Below are positions 49,793 to 58,194 of a DNA stretch of 64,000 nucleotides, one piece after another. The DNA comes from a virus: positions 1 to 64,000 of the IMG/VR virus record IMGVR_UViG_3300031951_000093. One strand, given 5' to 3'. Both the position numbers and the translations under genes were made by a program. The notes below the pieces were generated by a model. The model was not told the origin of the DNA. It saw nothing but the letters and a program-made list of their open reading frames with translations, and did not search any database. Within the stretch, counting starts at the first letter, position 1; each line of letters opens with the position of its first letter.

Positions 49793-51445
49793 ATGAGTTC
49801 GTTTCCGCGCATAGACATGCTGTCAGTTGCCGCAAGGGATGCCTATGATGGCTTCTCCTTGCTTGGCGTGCTCGAAACACAACATCGAATAGAGACAGCA
49901 AGATCCGCTGAAGTTGAGCCTTATGCCGAATCGTTTAGGACGTATATTAAAACATCTTATCCAAGGTTTCCATTTACAAAGCACACAAATAGACTGATTG
50001 ATATTGCCCAGCGTGTTGCCGATGGTGATCTGCCTAGGCTTATGGTGGAACTCCCGCCTAGGCATTGGAAATCTACGATATTTTCTAGATTTTTGCCTGG
50101 TTATTGCATTAGAAGGTTTCCTGACCGTAGCGCTGGTATTTGTTGTCATACACAAGATCTTGCGACAGGATTTAGTGAGAATGCACGGGATTATTTTGTA
50201 GCATCTGGAGGGATCCTGCGGGCTTCCCTGCGTGGCAAGGAAGAGTGGGGACCCGATGATGGGATCGGGAGCTGCTGGACTGCTGGGGTCGGCAAGGGTA
50301 CGGGCAAACCGGGTCATTTTTTGTTTGTGGATGATCCGATCAAATCCAGGGAGCAGGCAGAATCAGCGGCATATCGGCGGCAGATTCACTCATGGTGGGA
50401 TTCGGTGCTGAGCACACGAGAGGAGCCTGGTAGCTCAATGGTGATTGTTCATACTAGATGGCATGAATATGATCTAATTGGCTACTTGCTGGAGAAGAAT
50501 TTAGAACTTGAAAAAGAAGGTCTTGAAACCGAATGTGAGCGCTGGCATGTTATATCGCTACCCATTGAAGCATTGCCCGCGAATGATATTAAGCCATTGC
50601 CTTCTAGTGTAACGAGAGAGATTGATTCAAGAAATGTTGGAGAACCGCTAGATCCCGATAGATTTGGTCAAAAGTTTATCAAAAGGAAGCGTGCAAACAC
50701 TCCTCCGAGGGACTGGGAGGCAATCTATCAGCAGAGGCCAAGCGCTGGCGCGGGTACCGTATTCTTCAAAGATCGCCTCGCCTTCTATAGCTGTGATCAC
50801 TGGAGAGGATTAGAAGGTGACCCAATCCTGCCACAACAATTTATCCGTAAGATTCTATCTGTAGATTGCACATTTGATGATACAGCAGGTAGCGATATGG
50901 TCGCTATGGGATTATATGGGCAGACTGAGCATGGCTTATGGAAGTTAGATCTTGTCAACGAAAGATTAGACTTTCCAAAGACCTTAAATATGATCAAAAC
51001 ACTTTACAAAAAGCATTATTTTAATGAGTTGTTGATTGAGAAGAAAGCTAATGGCGCTGGCATCATCAAGATGCTCGAATCTGAGCAGTCCCATGGCTTC
51101 CGGGTGGTTGCTGCTGGCGTCGGAGAGATGGGCTCGAAAGAGGGCCGGGCTAATGCTGCCAGTGTAGAAGTAAATAGCGGCCGCGTGCTGTTGCCAAGGT
51201 CAGCTCCGTGGACAAATGAGTGCATAGATCAGCTCACTAAGTTCCCATCTGGTGTACATGATGATATTGTGGATGAAGTAAGCCAGGTTGTGATTTATGT
51301 CACTGGAAGTGGGCCATTGAAGTTTGAAACCGTAAGTTGGGGATATGGCGTAGCAATGATACCAGGAAGTGGCGGAAATAGCCATGGAATAGGATATAAT
51401 CAAGCTGCCATGATTGGCGCTCAAAATGGAGTTTACAGCCGATGA
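49793..51445 (+). CDS. terL: terminase large subunit
   Basis: The 550-aa protein has an ATPase domain with a modified Walker A (LPPRHWKST, residues 87-95), Walker B FLFVDDP (Asp180-Asp181) and an SWWDSVLSTRE coupling segment. A C-terminal RuvC-like nuclease domain follows, with Asp358 in LSVDCTFDD and a final HDDIVDEVS. It drives genome packaging and cuts concatemers. It overlaps the sigma-factor gene by ATGA. The last 40 residues are Gly-rich and variable. Confidence 0.95.
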   Translation: MSSFPRIDMLSVAARDAYDGFSLLGVLETQHRIETARSAEVEPYAESFRTYIKTSYPRFPFTKHTNRLIDIAQRVADGDLPRLMVELPPRHWKSTIFSRFLPGYCIRRFPDRSAGICCHTQDLATGFSENARDYFVASGGILRASLRGKEEWGPDDGIGSCWTAGVGKGTGKPGHFLFVDDPIKSREQAESAAYRRQIHSWWDSVLSTREEPGSSMVIVHTRWHEYDLIGYLLEKNLELEKEGLETECERWHVISLPIEALPANDIKPLPSSVTREIDSRNVGEPLDPDRFGQKFIKRKRANTPPRDWEAIYQQRPSAGAGTVFFKDRLAFYSCDHWRGLEGDPILPQQFIRKILSVDCTFDDTAGSDMVAMGLYGQTEHGLWKLDLVNERLDFPKTLNMIKTLYKKHYFNELLIEKKANGAGIIKMLESEQSHGFRVVAAGVGEMGSKEGRANAASVEVNSGRVLLPRSAPWTNECIDQLTKFPSGVHDDIVDEVSQVVIYVTGSGPLKFETVSWGYGVAMIPGSGGNSHGIGYNQAAMIGAQNGVYSR

Positions 51446-52332
51446 ATCGCCAGTCAACGCAAACACCTAAGGCTGTTGGTGCTCGAAGCACTAAAGTTCG
51501 AGCGGTTAATCATGAAAAGACCGAAGTCAAGACCAAGATTGGATCGCCAACAGAATATAGCGAACAGCTTGCGATAGACAATATCAAGCTAGCACAGAAA
51601 CACGCTCATGTGATGTCAATACGAACAAAGATGCCCTATGAAGACTTATATCAAGTTGCGTTGATTGGCCTGATTAAGGCTTGTCGTAAATATGATCCAT
51701 CCAAGGTTAATCCTGACAATGGCAAGCCATATAAGCTAAGCACAATTGCCGTGCCATTTATTGATGGTGCGATGTATCAATACCTAAGGGATCGTGGCCA
51801 TAGCACAGGCGTCAAGTTTCCTGACCGATGGAGAGATAAGGCTAGTATTGTCCGTAAGATGTCTGCGAATGGATCCTGTGTTGAAGATATTGCAACCGCA
51901 ACTAACTTACGAGCTGATGAAGTAAATGAAATCCTAACAGCACAAAGCGCACCAGTTGCGCTAGATCCAGAAATCAAGCTGTATTCAAATAGCATTGATG
52001 ATAGCGAATATGAAGACTTTTATGAGCTGATACAAGCGCTAGCAATCGTAGATCGAGCACATGCCGCAATATCAACAATTGATCAAGGATTGCTGGAAGC
52101 AGCATGGAATCATCAGCGCCGTAGGCAGATTGCAACCGGGCCATTTTTTCAATTTATGCAACGCGCCAAGAAGGTGTTGTCTGGTGTTTCGATTGTAATT
52201 GAAAAGCAAATTGATTTGTCTATTGAAGTCAAAACAGAAGAAAACCTGACGCCCATGTCATCAGGCAGGCGCAGGGTATCAGATCCGAAAGAAATAATAG
52301 ATACTGTAATGAGCCAGCTAGACCTATTTTAA
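51442..52332 (+). CDS. phage sigma-70 family factor
   Basis: The 296-aa protein has sigma region 2 at about residues 45-120: NIKLAQKHAHVMS, then YEDLYQVALIGLIKACRKYDPSK and the region 2.3-2.4 segment STIAVPFIDGAMYQYLRDRG. A helix-turn-helix like region 3 (about 125-170) follows. The C-terminal half has no clear region 4. It is coupled to terL and lies right before the portal, so it is a late-region gene. It may direct host polymerase to phage promoters, perhaps the CGGGAAAACTA motif. Confidence 0.75.
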   Translation: MNRQSTQTPKAVGARSTKVRAVNHEKTEVKTKIGSPTEYSEQLAIDNIKLAQKHAHVMSIRTKMPYEDLYQVALIGLIKACRKYDPSKVNPDNGKPYKLSTIAVPFIDGAMYQYLRDRGHSTGVKFPDRWRDKASIVRKMSANGSCVEDIATATNLRADEVNEILTAQSAPVALDPEIKLYSNSIDDSEYEDFYELIQALAIVDRAHAAISTIDQGLLEAAWNHQRRRQIATGPFFQFMQRAKKVLSGVSIVIEKQIDLSIEVKTEENLTPMSSGRRRVSDPKEIIDTVMSQLDLF

Positions 52333-55504: not shown

Positions 55505-57400
55505 ATGGCAACCATAGGCGACCAACAGCTAGCACTATCTGACGATTATGCCGAAGCATTAGATATGCTAAGCAATCGTGCGGTTGATAATACCAAAGCG
55601 GCCTTAGTGCGATCACTTAAGCGTACCTTAAAAGATCTGCGCCGATACTATTCAGATTTCATTGATCCTGAGCTGAAAAAATATCAATCAGCCGATGGCA
55701 AGATGCGTCGCCCAATGTCATATTCTATCGCTGATAGTAATGCCAAAATGGTTAAGCTTCTTCAGATTGCGCAAGAATACTTTCCAGAGCAAGAATTGAA
55801 TCGTATCACAGCACAATATAAGAAAGATTTTGGCGAAGCCGTACAGCTTGGCGGTGATTTGGGTAAAGAATTGGCGCAATTAGTTGATTCTGATGGCAAA
55901 GGGAATAGCATGTTTGTTGGCGCCAGTAAAGAAGCTGTGATCGGCGCCGCTAACACAGCATCAGCTTATATCAGGCGCGAAGTTGAAACTTTTCGTGATG
56001 ATATTGCACGCATTGTGCAGGATGGTATTGGACGCGGGAAAAGCTCTAAAGCATTAGAGAAAGATATAAGAGTTGCACTATTGGGTGCAAAGGATCCAAA
56101 TAATATCACACCTAAATTAGGTCTTCTTCGCCGGGCTGAATTGATTGCAAGATCTGAGCTTGCTAATGCTTATACTGGTGCGCAAAAAGCAGCCGCAGCG
56201 CGTAATGGGTATAAGTATGGGAGGTTTATTACAACACAAGATGAAAGGACTTGTCCGTATTGCGCATCTAGGCATGGTAAGATATATTTGTTAAGTGAAA
56301 TGACTGGAACTTTGCACCCTAGATGCGTCTTGGGTGATACAAAGGTTTCCCCTGGGCCTTTCTCTGCGGTTATGCGCGGCTGGTACCGGGGCAACATCGT
56401 AACCATAAGACTTGATGATGGGAGCAGCCAATCCGTCACCGGCCATCACCCAGTGTTGACGACTGATGGAATCAAGCCCGCTTGCGCTCTCAGCAAGGGT
56501 GATAATTTGATTGGTGATCGCATTAATATCCTCTCTGATTCCTGCTCTGAACCAGACTTCCACCAGGTGCCAGCCTGCGCCGAGAACATATTTGCGGCGC
56601 TTGTTCAATCTGGCGCCATGCCTGCCGTAAGCGTGCCAGTTTCCCCCTTGGATCTCCACGGCGATGGAGTGTGTATTGATGGCAAGATCGAGATTGTAAG
56701 GTCCACAAGCCTTCTCGAAGGTTACTGGAAAACCGCGACAGGCAAGAATGCTGGCGAGGGCAATAGCGCGAGTCGATACATGGCTTTTAGACAGTTCTCT
56801 ACCTTGCGCCTGCCTGATCTGACGATCCTCGGGCTGGGGGGTGCCGCGTGTGGCAGCATGAGCATTCTGAGTGAGGCGCAATCTGTCCTCGCGGGAGGAT
56901 TGAGCCATGCGGAGATACATAGAATCACTACGTCCGCGTGGCGTAATCCCTCGCTCACGCAACCTGTTGTCAATGACACTTCGACTAACAAAAAATTGCT
57001 CGGCAAGTGCTTTGACGCTTTTCCCGGACTCGTACAGACTCACAATATCATCGACATTCAGATGAGCGAATTTTCTGGTCATGTTTACAGTTTTGAAACA
57101 TTTTGTGGCTACTATTATACAGGATCCCAGTCAAGGATCGTTAACCAAAATTGCCGATGCAGCCTATCTCCAGTTTCTGATCTTGCAGTAGAAGAAACTG
57201 ATCCCGAATTGCGCCGTGAATTATTAAGGGAAGACTTTTGGGAGAAGGAACGGAATAATGTATGGAAAAAGTTTGCCGATACTAAAGAATGGCCATTTGA
57301 AAAGGCTTCTAAAGTATTAGAAGATCACCTTAAAAAGCCATCTGCCAGTGAGAAACGGCTTTATCCTGACATCAAGGAAGCTCCTAAGCCGGTTGCTTGA
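55505..57400 (+). CDS. head morphogenesis protein (SPP1 gp7/Mu gpF type) with intein
   Basis: The 631-aa precursor has extein residues 1-273 and 550-631. The extein carries the Mu gpF domain: RRAELIARSELANAYTGAQ, TTQDERTCPYCASRHG and, after splicing, LHPR-CRCSLSPV. An intein of 276 residues (274-549) interrupts this motif at the conserved Cys. Spliced protein would be 355 aa, normal for the family. It acts in early head assembly with the portal. No Shine-Dalgarno sequence is visible. If splicing failed the domain would be broken, so activity of the intein is expected. Confidence 0.88.
   Translation: MATIGDQQLALSDDYAEALDMLSNRAVDNTKAALVRSLKRTLKDLRRYYSDFIDPELKKYQSADGKMRRPMSYSIADSNAKMVKLLQIAQEYFPEQELNRITAQYKKDFGEAVQLGGDLGKELAQLVDSDGKGNSMFVGASKEAVIGAANTASAYIRREVETFRDDIARIVQDGIGRGKSSKALEKDIRVALLGAKDPNNITPKLGLLRRAELIARSELANAYTGAQKAAAARNGYKYGRFITTQDERTCPYCASRHGKIYLLSEMTGTLHPRCVLGDTKVSPGPFSAVMRGWYRGNIVTIRLDDGSSQSVTGHHPVLTTDGIKPACALSKGDNLIGDRINILSDSCSEPDFHQVPACAENIFAALVQSGAMPAVSVPVSPLDLHGDGVCIDGKIEIVRSTSLLEGYWKTATGKNAGEGNSASRYMAFRQFSTLRLPDLTILGLGGAACGSMSILSEAQSVLAGGLSHAEIHRITTSAWRNPSLTQPVVNDTSTNKKLLGKCFDAFPGLVQTHNIIDIQMSEFSGHVYSFETFCGYYYTGSQSRIVNQNCRCSLSPVSDLAVEETDPELRRELLREDFWEKERNNVWKKFADTKEWPFEKASKVLEDHLKKPSASEKRLYPDIKEAPKPVA
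56291..57082 (-). CDS. Vsr-like (EDxHD-type) homing endonuclease antisense to the intein
   Basis: The 263-aa frame has an N-terminal helix-turn-helix (about residues 10-46: DDIVSLYESGKSVKALAEQF then VSRSVIDNRLRERG) and a PD-(D/E)XK/Vsr-type nuclease core. The core includes YNLDLAINTHSIAVEIQGG (Asp132, Glu143), NWH (His150), and KRRKYVLGAGWHLVEVWF (about 161-178). It lies wholly on the strand opposite to the intein coding region, which has an open frame on both strands. The last about 65 residues and stop run into the antisense of the N-terminal splicing blocks and extein. It would cut intein-free alleles and so spread the intein. Confidence 0.8.
   Translation of the reverse strand: MTRKFAHLNVDDIVSLYESGKSVKALAEQFFVSRSVIDNRLRERGITPRGRSDSMYLRMAQSSREDRLRLTQNAHAATRGTPQPEDRQIRQAQGRELSKSHVSTRAIALASILACRGFPVTFEKACGPYNLDLAINTHSIAVEIQGGNWHAYGRHGARLNKRRKYVLGAGWHLVEVWFRAGIREDINAITNQIITLAESASGLDSISRQHWVMAGDGLAAPIIKSYGYDVAPVPAAHNRRERPRGNLCITQDASRVQSSSHFT
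56324..57151 (+). mobile_element. intein in the head morphogenesis gene
   Basis: Sense splicing motifs: Cys274 start in CVLGDTKV (block A), VTGHHPVLTTDG (block B with T-x-x-H), SGHVYSFETFCGYYYTG (block F) and IVNQN-C (block G). The usual penultimate His of block G is Gln here. Between blocks B and F there is no LAGLIDADG or HNH motif in the sense frame; instead the antisense strand encodes the endonuclease. Confidence 0.85.
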
Positions 57401-57828: not shown

Positions 57829-57891
57829 TTGGTTTGTTTCAGGATGCACAATCTCGCGCATCCTAAATTCCACCTATTAACAAAAGGTTTT

Positions 57892-58194
57892 ATGCCTGAT
57901 TCTGCATTCCTGCCGGTTGGCAATGGCAATGGCAATGGCTATGGCGATGGCTATGGCGATGGCAATGGTAATGGCGATGGCTATGGCTATGGCAATGGCT
58001 ATGGCAATGGCTATGGCTATGGCTATGGCTATGGCGATGGATATGGCAATGGCTATGGCTATGGCTATGGCTATGGCGATGGATATGGCTATGGCTATGG
58101 CTATGGATATGGCAATGGCTATGGCGATAGCAATGGCTATGGCTATGGCTATGGCGATGGCTATGGAACACCATCTATTAGGATTAGAAAATGA
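57892..58194 (+). CDS. Gly-Tyr-Asn-Asp repeat protein
   Basis: The 100-aa protein is MPDSAFLPV followed by about 40 dipeptide units Gly-Tyr, Gly-Asn or Gly-Asp and a short TPSIRIRK tail. It is low complexity and without a fold. Such proteins are seen next to DUF6948 in other phages. Sticky surface, phase-separating or metal-binding roles are speculation. Its stop overlaps the next start. Confidence 0.65.
   Translation: MPDSAFLPVGNGNGNGYGDGYGDGNGNGDGYGYGNGYGNGYGYGYGYGDGYGNGYGYGYGYGDGYGYGYGYGYGNGYGDSNGYGYGYGDGYGTPSIRIRK
57919..58167 (+). repeat. hexanucleotide array (GGCNATGGNNAT-type)
   Basis: About 40 units of GGC or GGA followed by TAT, AAT or GAT run without interruption. On the opposite strand the same array reads as a false His-Ser repeat frame. 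Slippage would change length in steps that keep the frame. Confidence 0.9.

Follow-up and report, generated by a model that had tools for sequence, protein, structure and literature searches.

A phage head-gene intein whose middle very probably encodes a Vsr-type homing endonuclease on the opposite strand

Mobile inteins are usually described as fusions of a splicing domain with an in-frame endonuclease; in classical homing inteins, the endonuclease domain lies in frame within the intein protein. A 2009 study (Dassa et al.) reportedly found split inteins whose halves, on separate genes, flank an EDxHD-type endonuclease gene, and these are one of the two closest precedents for the locus described here. 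The other is the group I intron with an endonuclease gene on the complementary strand, as in Porphyra S1506 (PMC2585584). The endonuclease I-Bth0305I is listed among group I intron endonucleases (PMC3943268). Here we analyze a window of 64,000 nucleotides (the whole stretch of DNA examined, positions 1 to 64,000 of IMG/VR virus record IMGVR_UViG_3300031951_000093, a record of 79,993 bases), in which the gene order is terminase, portal, MuF/SPP1-gp7-like head gene. The head gene holds an intein, and we conclude that the middle of this intein very probably encodes, in antisense, a homing endonuclease of the Vsr/EDxHD type, and that this is a general layout.

A first-pass annotation of the window had described two overlapping frames, and both exist as described: a sense frame of 631 amino acids and an antisense frame of 263 amino acids plus stop, in register. 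The antisense codons are superimposed exactly on the sense codons (both phase 2 mod 3), and the G+C fraction is 0.52 in the intein and 0.43 in either extein. The features, in window coordinates, are as follows:

55505..57400, plus strand: MuF / SPP1 gp7-like minor head (head morphogenesis) gene, 631 amino acids, interrupted by the intein (PF04233 E 6.5e-11; TIGR01641 E 2.2e-12; PHROG head families)
56324..57151, plus strand: intein, 276 amino acids, Cys1 to Asn276 with +1 Cys (junctions HPR/C and NQN/C; empty site in locus L013; HINT fold model)
56324..56533, plus strand: N-terminal splicing region, blocks A and B (T39-x-x-H42 at 56438-56449; A/B profile)
56654..56665, plus strand: sense motif L/F-H-G-D, residues 111-114, on the nuclease active-site strand (codon bias; polarity break at sense residues 110-121)
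57077..57151, plus strand: C-terminal splicing region, block F (GHVYSFETF...) and block G (VNQN) (F/G profile)
56291..57082, minus strand: antisense homing-endonuclease-like gene, 263 amino acids plus stop (coding 57082-56294), in register with the sense codons
57080..57082, minus strand: nuclease start codon ATG, the reverse complement of the block-F His codon CAT
56948..57055, minus strand: N-terminal helix-turn-helix, residues ~10-45, resolvase/GcrA-like (PF02796 E 0.0028, below cut-off; VIA Z ~6)
56474..56782, minus strand: predicted Vsr/EDxHD-type PD-(D/E)XK nuclease domain, residues 101-203 (profile, model, conserved residues)
56687-56689 (D132), 56654-56656 (E143), 56633-56635 (H150), 56714-56716 (E123) and 56765-56767 (A106), minus strand: nuclease residues
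56294..56473, minus strand: antisense tail, residues 204-263, over blocks A/B and ~10 extein codons (mostly low model confidence)

Like classical homing inteins, the element has HINT splicing blocks at a conserved site and shows presence/absence polymorphism; unlike them, it carries its endonuclease as a distinct antisense gene that has a start and a stop of its own. It shares with the split inteins an EDxHD-type endonuclease that is tied to the intein yet unfused, but here the intein is continuous (the sense frame is a single run of 631 codons), with the endonuclease gene lying across it in antisense. Introns of the Porphyra S1506 type also carry an antisense endonuclease gene in a splicing element (PMC2585584), but the intron is RNA and needs no translation, whereas here the same codons are protein-coding on both strands. 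In common with I-Bth0305I and the EDxHD homing endonucleases are the nuclease fold, conserved Asp, Glu and His residues (although the usual Glu106 is Ala in the window), a separate DNA-binding part and a phage host (PMC3943268); the differences are an antisense position inside an intein and an N-terminal resolvase-like helix-turn-helix (HTH). Escherichia phage Snoke (L023) has a head-gene intein and the same antisense gene, and its paper (PMC6776784) reports the intein alone, with no mention in its text of endonuclease, antisense or opposite. No antisense endonuclease within an intein was described in the literature searched, the sources being covered in part, and an earlier description may exist (PMC8966425, PMC4853749, PMC6776784, PMC1635734, PMC1508164, PMC2585584, PMC3943268, PMC10448857, PMC12350094, PMC2988022, PMC7282813 and PMC5050341 were included). 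The element would work like a homing intein yet fails the in-frame definition, and we would place it in a new architectural class among mobile inteins.

The sense protein has the marks of an intein, as the first-pass annotation had claimed on the strength of its splicing blocks; boundaries, motifs and a HINT model all bear this out. Inteins are recognized by Cys or Ser at position 1, a block B T-x-x-H, a block F, a terminal Asn, and Cys, Ser or Thr at +1. The window has C1, T39-x-x-H42, block F, N276 and a +1 Cys, and the penultimate residue is Gln rather than His. Residues C1, T39, H42 and N276 were invariant in 63 aligned inteins, an alignment whose ends were picked at Cys and Asn. A structure model built from these 63 sequences was confident in its HINT part, chiefly residues 1-70 and 238-276, where the mean predicted local distance difference test score (pLDDT) was >90 for residues 1-60 and 77 for 61-70. 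Compared with solved structures, the model matched mostly inteins among the top 50 rows (VIA Z 12.6-8.7), including the RecA intein over 106 residues at a root-mean-square deviation (rmsd) of 1.6. Motifs and modelled fold thus place the sense insert in the HINT intein class, with splicing predicted. Also as first proposed, the sense frame lacks an endonuclease: neither Pfam nor NCBIfam detected a nuclease family in the sense protein.

The antisense protein is where a nuclease was found. The single sequence gave only sub-threshold Pfam matches, to the MTES_1575 nuclease (E 1e-5) and to a resolvase HTH (E 0.003), and a PDB search with this protein alone returned no match, so that a family profile was needed. 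The profile of 16 relatives matched PDB entry 3r3p, I-Bth0305I, at E 1.4e-9, and 9 of the 16 family members matched MTES_1575 at E up to 0.01. A structure model from a 74-sequence alignment had 172 residues with pLDDT >=90, was confident for most of residues 10-203, and was mostly low after 205. It resembled I-Bth0305I over 93 residues (VIA Z 10.0, rmsd 2.4), a Neisseria endonuclease-like protein (Z 10.4) and Vsr (Z 9.7), while the HTH part resembled GcrA and resolvase DNA-binding domains (VIA Z ~6). Among the 74 sequences, D132 was kept in 74, E143 in 73 and H150 in 72. By profile and fold, the antisense protein belongs with the Vsr/EDxHD endonucleases, and cleavage is predicted. The HTH and Vsr-like core that had been read from the sequence at first pass are upheld in the fold, the Asp, Glu143 and the His; its full set of expected residues is less certain, as the usual Glu106 is Ala with Glu at 123 instead, and the confident nuclease ends at about residue 203.

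Codon substitutions allowed us to ask which strand selection has preserved. Because the registers are aligned such that sense position 1 is antisense position 3, silent changes tell the strands apart. We counted codons with a single change in 43 pairs drawn from 94 distinct loci, each locus being used once. Loci L013-L017 (no nuclease), L039 and L040 (no intein), L033 (head gene in separate frames, record marked UNVERIFIED) and L007 (cut) were left out of the start-site, promoter, codon and pairwise polarity analyses; L030, L086 and L108 (no block F/G match) were also left out of the block-F and pairwise polarity analyses. In the intein middle, 1392 codons were silent only in antisense versus 356 only in sense, and all 43 pairs pointed to antisense. 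The N-extein gave 190 antisense-silent versus 1036 sense-silent codons, with 40/43 pairs in the sense direction, 2 ties and a single exception (L064/L067, 9 vs 8). Within groups, the middle remained antisense (antisense to sense counts of 29:7 for window/L005, 22:0 for LPSE1/Snoke, 39:8 for Gordonia, 28:12 for Pseudomonas/Cronobacter). When polarity was binned along the gene in 12-codon bins, for the 33/43 pairs present in one alignment, it was antisense across sense residues 62-253 except 110-121 (32 vs 45), and was sense again at 38-61. Judged by its codons, the antisense protein is a maintained gene: the polarity of the intein middle argues that this protein is maintained, with a short sense element kept within it. 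Most of the sense middle seems to be held mainly to staying stop-free. The codon-level conservation that the first-pass annotation had left to be computed is thus strongly antisense.

The same data removed one part of the original description, which held that the antisense frame runs through block B and into the extein with each strand constraining the other. In 20/22 loci examined, the antisense frame ends while still in the intein, 1-22 codons from its edge; only the window and its near-copy L012 have an antisense frame entering the extein, by 11 and 19 codons. Because the tail is mostly of low pLDDT and polarity returns to sense around block B, we judge that it is probably not a real constraint and not functional.

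The layout is widespread. A tblastn search with the antisense protein retrieved 116 phage records at E up to 0.01, and further loci came from IMG/VR and GTDB contig scans, one of which kept the best 80 of 442 relatives, and from a plasmid search. The resulting set comprised 188 loci with a nuclease profile match at <=1e-10, and 147 distinct nuclease DNA sequences, some contigs having been fetched repeatedly; the profile match was <180 residues in 11/188 loci. Intein blocks A/B lay opposite the nuclease in 188/188 loci and on the nuclease strand in 0, such that the in-frame endonuclease of a classical homing intein was seen in none of them. Blocks F/G lay opposite in 181/188; in five of the 7 loci without F/G the nuclease was at or near the locus end (L007, L086, L108, L152, L193), and in L030 and L128 it was not. 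As for relatives with a broken antisense frame, the in-register opposite strand was stop-free in 188/188 loci, found nearly all through the nuclease. Among the 147 distinct sequences, this register was stop-free in 147, and the other two registers in 1 and 0 (median stops 6 and 12). Where junctions were readable, the N-junction was H[PAVI]xC in 71/97 distinct sequences and the C-junction N/CxC in 73/94. A MuF profile match was found in 68/97 distinct sequences; 36/120 rows (29/97 distinct) had none, some of them with a cut N-extein, and therefore we do not claim every host gene as MuF. Carriers were found in Proteobacteria, Actinobacteria, Firmicutes and Chloroflexi, in their phages or in genome contigs. 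Because a gene is already called on the sense strand, most annotations in the records opened overlook the antisense one: among 20 phage records opened, 19 annotate an other-strand gene across the match (head/capsid protein or hypothetical) and 1 is unannotated, and the PK2 record annotates the antisense frame as a hypothetical protein. Of six loci fetched by intein-block similarity, two carried the antisense nuclease (L194, L196) and four did not (L195, L197, L198, L199). In Escherichia phage KMB36 (L024), a diverged intein with the antisense nuclease occupies a second site further upstream, although the extein is 97% identical to that of Snoke across the compared stretch. In L033, a record marked UNVERIFIED, the head gene is in separate frames.

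Some loci stood apart from these. In a Streptomyces platensis plasmid with phage genes (L042, 2581-4410), both the antisense nuclease and the intein blocks occur in a host gene with no MuF or Pfam match (E 0.5). In Vibrio phage 1.245.O (L199), a terminase with an annotated intein region is followed by a separate hedgehog/hint gene, which may be a split intein. Stau2 (L039) and gmqsjt-1 (L040) were considered as free-standing relatives of the nuclease and set aside, as they gave weak matches only and have no intein blocks. In Staphylococcus phage Stau2, the two pieces of a divided large terminase enclose a gene on the same strand that is annotated as an HNH endonuclease and whose C-terminus weakly matches the nuclease.

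Comparisons among relatives are those expected of a mobile element. The intein-free close relative L013 reads HPRCRCG at the site (HPR/CRC), and its DNA is 96.4% identical to the window in the N-extein and 86.8% in the C-extein. Between the window and L012, the intein differs at 2/828 nucleotides (nt), the N-extein at 177/822 and the C-extein at 34/246, and the first mismatches outside the intein are 4 nt upstream and 12 nt downstream of it. Gordonia phages Vivi2 and Keitabear have N-exteins that are 99% alike in amino acids over the stretch compared, and nucleases that are only 34% alike. Across 3033 pairs, nuclease and extein identities had a correlation of 0.53. Occupancy was patchy: >=80% of the intein-bearing query gene was covered in 58/406 and 7/110 records. 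Among the matches listed (60 of 406; 40 of 110), many were in two pieces with empty-site spacing, and some Gordonia rows had the spacing of another insert; at least one record below the 80% mark (TS6, with 77% coverage in one piece) also contains intein sequence, and matches to gene ends only are uninformative on occupancy. Comparative evidence therefore gives both a polymorphic fixed site and apparent transfer without flanks.

In many relatives, codon usage suggests that translation of the nuclease begins within block F. When reversed, the block-F sequence G-H-V-Y-[ND]-L-[QE] reads in many of them as GAGG or GGAGG, 8 nt, and ATG. We relied on a test of 55 sequences with H[VI][YF]xL[QE], a pattern that itself selects those keeping His and Leu; expectations were taken from extein usage, with shared descent uncorrected. 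In a looser scan, the position of block F was wrong for several sequences (L029, L036, L073 and L077 among them), and 4 gave no motif. The block-F His was CAT in 47/55 (20.9 expected) and the block-F Leu was CTC in 43/55 (14.6 expected). Controls stood at expectation (block-B Leu 18/56, 15.2 expected; block-F Tyr 31/50, 33.5 expected). Other block-F codons gave Glu GAA 20/26 (10.8 expected), Gln CAG 18/29 (21.1 expected), Val 38/54 (28.5 expected) and Asn/Asp with third-position C 44/52 (35.3 expected), and block B gave His CAT 14/60 (22.0 expected) and Thr ACC 22/60 (26.0 expected). Because Leu across the whole A/B region also shows a CTC excess (199/586, 152.8 expected), the block-F CTC excess may be partly background.

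We propose the following mechanism from these data. The head protein would be translated with its 276-residue insert, and, as motifs and fold suggest, the HINT part (residues ~1-70 and 238-276) would excise and join the exteins at HPR/CRC. The same DNA, read in antisense, would yield an HTH plus Vsr/EDxHD-type nuclease whose amino acids are kept by selection. This nuclease would presumably cut MuF-type genes that lack the intein, within their conserved HPxCxC region, and repair would copy the intein into the cut, as site polymorphism and intein/extein discordance suggest. The antisense placement may let the nuclease be expressed apart from the late head operon.

Several observations weigh against this interpretation. 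The intein Pfam score was 14.3 bits (cut-off 35.8 bits), and the nuclease Pfam score was 25.9 bits (cut-off 38.2 bits). In the structure comparison of the antisense model, a mitoribosomal chain (9i05_Xr, Z 9.9) scored level with I-Bth0305I, and Foldseek E-values were weak, the best being 0.005 for the antisense model (Vsr first, I-Bth0305I second) and 0.004 for the other model; for these reasons, we give the sequence profile as much weight as the fold. Residue 106 is Glu in 66/74 relatives and Ala in the window. The deep Gordonia pair L034/L036 shows little polarity under the sense alignment (16:13), and the 43 pairs are not fully independent, as the L001 and L003 inteins are near-identical and the counts ignore kinship. 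Sampling began mostly from the nuclease, leaving inteins that lost it under-sampled; the survey thus shows that the nuclease comes antisense in inteins, and not that such inteins always carry a nuclease. A Shine-Dalgarno-like motif preceded the candidate start in 33/97 distinct sequences, and a nearby ATG was found in 57/97 (counts with no shuffled control), and initiation is therefore not uniform. The window copy keeps the ATG and is without a Shine-Dalgarno sequence, as is L005, and consensus scans of the window and L020 for an antisense promoter gave nothing above shuffles. Finally, recombination without a nuclease could also explain the sharp transfer of the intein.

The missing Shine-Dalgarno sequences, the change of Glu106 to Ala and the frame that enters the extein would fit an antisense gene that is real in the family but is decaying or weakly expressed in the window copy, leaving a near-passive intein. 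We consider this unlikely, as the frame is intact, its polarity against L005 is still antisense, and a near-identical copy sits in a diverged gene. The active site argues in the same direction. Residues 106/123 are Glu/Gln in 65/74 sequences, Ala/Glu in 7/74 (the window included, and perhaps one clade), Glu/Asn in 1 and Asp/Ser in 1, so that Ala106 is always paired with Glu123 (7/7). In the Ala106 group, it looks like the catalytic acid has migrated from 106 to 123, and this coupled swap argues that the enzyme is functional.

That the antisense protein is kept for some other job, such as a site-specific repressor or nickase, with the intein spread by ordinary phage recombination, strikes us as highly improbable. 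An HTH is present, phage modules recombine freely, and the evidence of mobility is comparative only; but the three nuclease residues are conserved, the limits of exchange fall within 4 nt of the intein on one side and 12 nt on the other, and different inteins occupy one site in N-exteins that are 99% alike. Slightly less probable again is a sense middle that is itself a functional domain, with the antisense gene secondary. The sense H-G-D motif is constrained, and sense residues 81-130 were modelled at a mean pLDDT of 82-95 per 10-residue block, but sense changes exceed antisense changes in every 12-codon bin of 62-253 outside 110-121, and residues 129-237 were modelled with mostly low confidence. 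This alternative probably holds only for the short H-G-D element. Read in reverse, H-G-D is Val/Ile-Ala-Val adjoining Glu143; antisense Ala141 is GCC in 69/71 and Val142 is GTG in 67/69, compared with family-wide usage of 46% and 25%, and on this codon evidence the motif is constrained on both strands. Our guess is that it could supply His/Asp for splicing; the constraint may also be a DNA-level signal. A mirror artefact, in which the antisense frame is open only through codon use or sense-domain conservation, is scarcely credible, for although G+C-rich genomes commonly have long antisense frames in codon-on-codon register and the L021 frame is open for ~1196 codons, a chance or mirror open frame is rejected on a codon polarity that is antisense in every pair and switches at block B and the exteins, and the homology and fold shared with I-Bth0305I/Vsr and the coupled Glu swap also oppose it.

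An antisense endonuclease of a second kind was found in Gordonia phages. Lennon and SchottB have inteins in the same MuF gene, with the C-junction NCRCTML as in Vivi2, and without the Vsr-like nuclease. Their antisense register-0 strand encodes a different protein of 196 amino acids:

L195 2504-3091 and L197 2549-3136, minus strand: second-type antisense endonuclease (phrog_5046)

The 196-residue protein matches phrog_5046 (phage endonuclease, labelled HNH) at E 2e-15 and I-MsoI weakly (E 0.0013), as well as endonuclease-annotated genes of Caulobacter phages and one cyanophage, and nine Gordonia records carry this second type. In the single Lennon/SchottB pair, polarity was 36 vs 2 toward antisense in the middle and 56 vs 4 toward sense in the N-extein. 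Pfam did not certify LAGLIDADG in the 196-residue protein (LAGLIDADG_3 E 0.26 in Lennon, nothing in SchottB). We tentatively assign it to the LAGLIDADG type, tentatively because the call rests on phrog_5046, the weak I-MsoI match and a motif that we take to be LAGLIDADG-like.

A wider claim would be that phage late genes harbor dual-strand inteins as a broad class, in which the endonuclease gene is antisense in codon register, the ribosome-binding site and start of the nuclease lie in block F, a needed sense H-G-D lies in the active-site strand, the layout has arisen at least twice (Vsr-like and LAGLIDADG-like), and homing is freed from late head-gene timing; on present evidence, we would put this claim at even chances. 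The splicing and endonuclease functions fall to two distinct proteins that share one set of codons on opposite strands and persist across wide divergence, and the locus offers a natural system for studying the origin, constraint and regulation of antisense gene overlap. It suggests how inteins might home when the host gene is a late structural gene: if true, antisense placement would let inteins live in genes expressed after replication. The family supplies many uncharacterized endonucleases that probably target the MuF HPxCxC coding site, and several carriers are isolated phages, open to direct tests.

Two neighboring genes in the window were also recorded. A Sigma-70-like factor lies between the large terminase and portal genes at 51442-52332 (Sigma70_r2 E 4.6e-8; phrog_351 E 2.3e-25). 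Just 3' of the head gene, an open reading frame at 57829-58194 consists mainly of short Gly-Tyr/Asn/Asp repeats (tggcaatggctatggcgatggc...).

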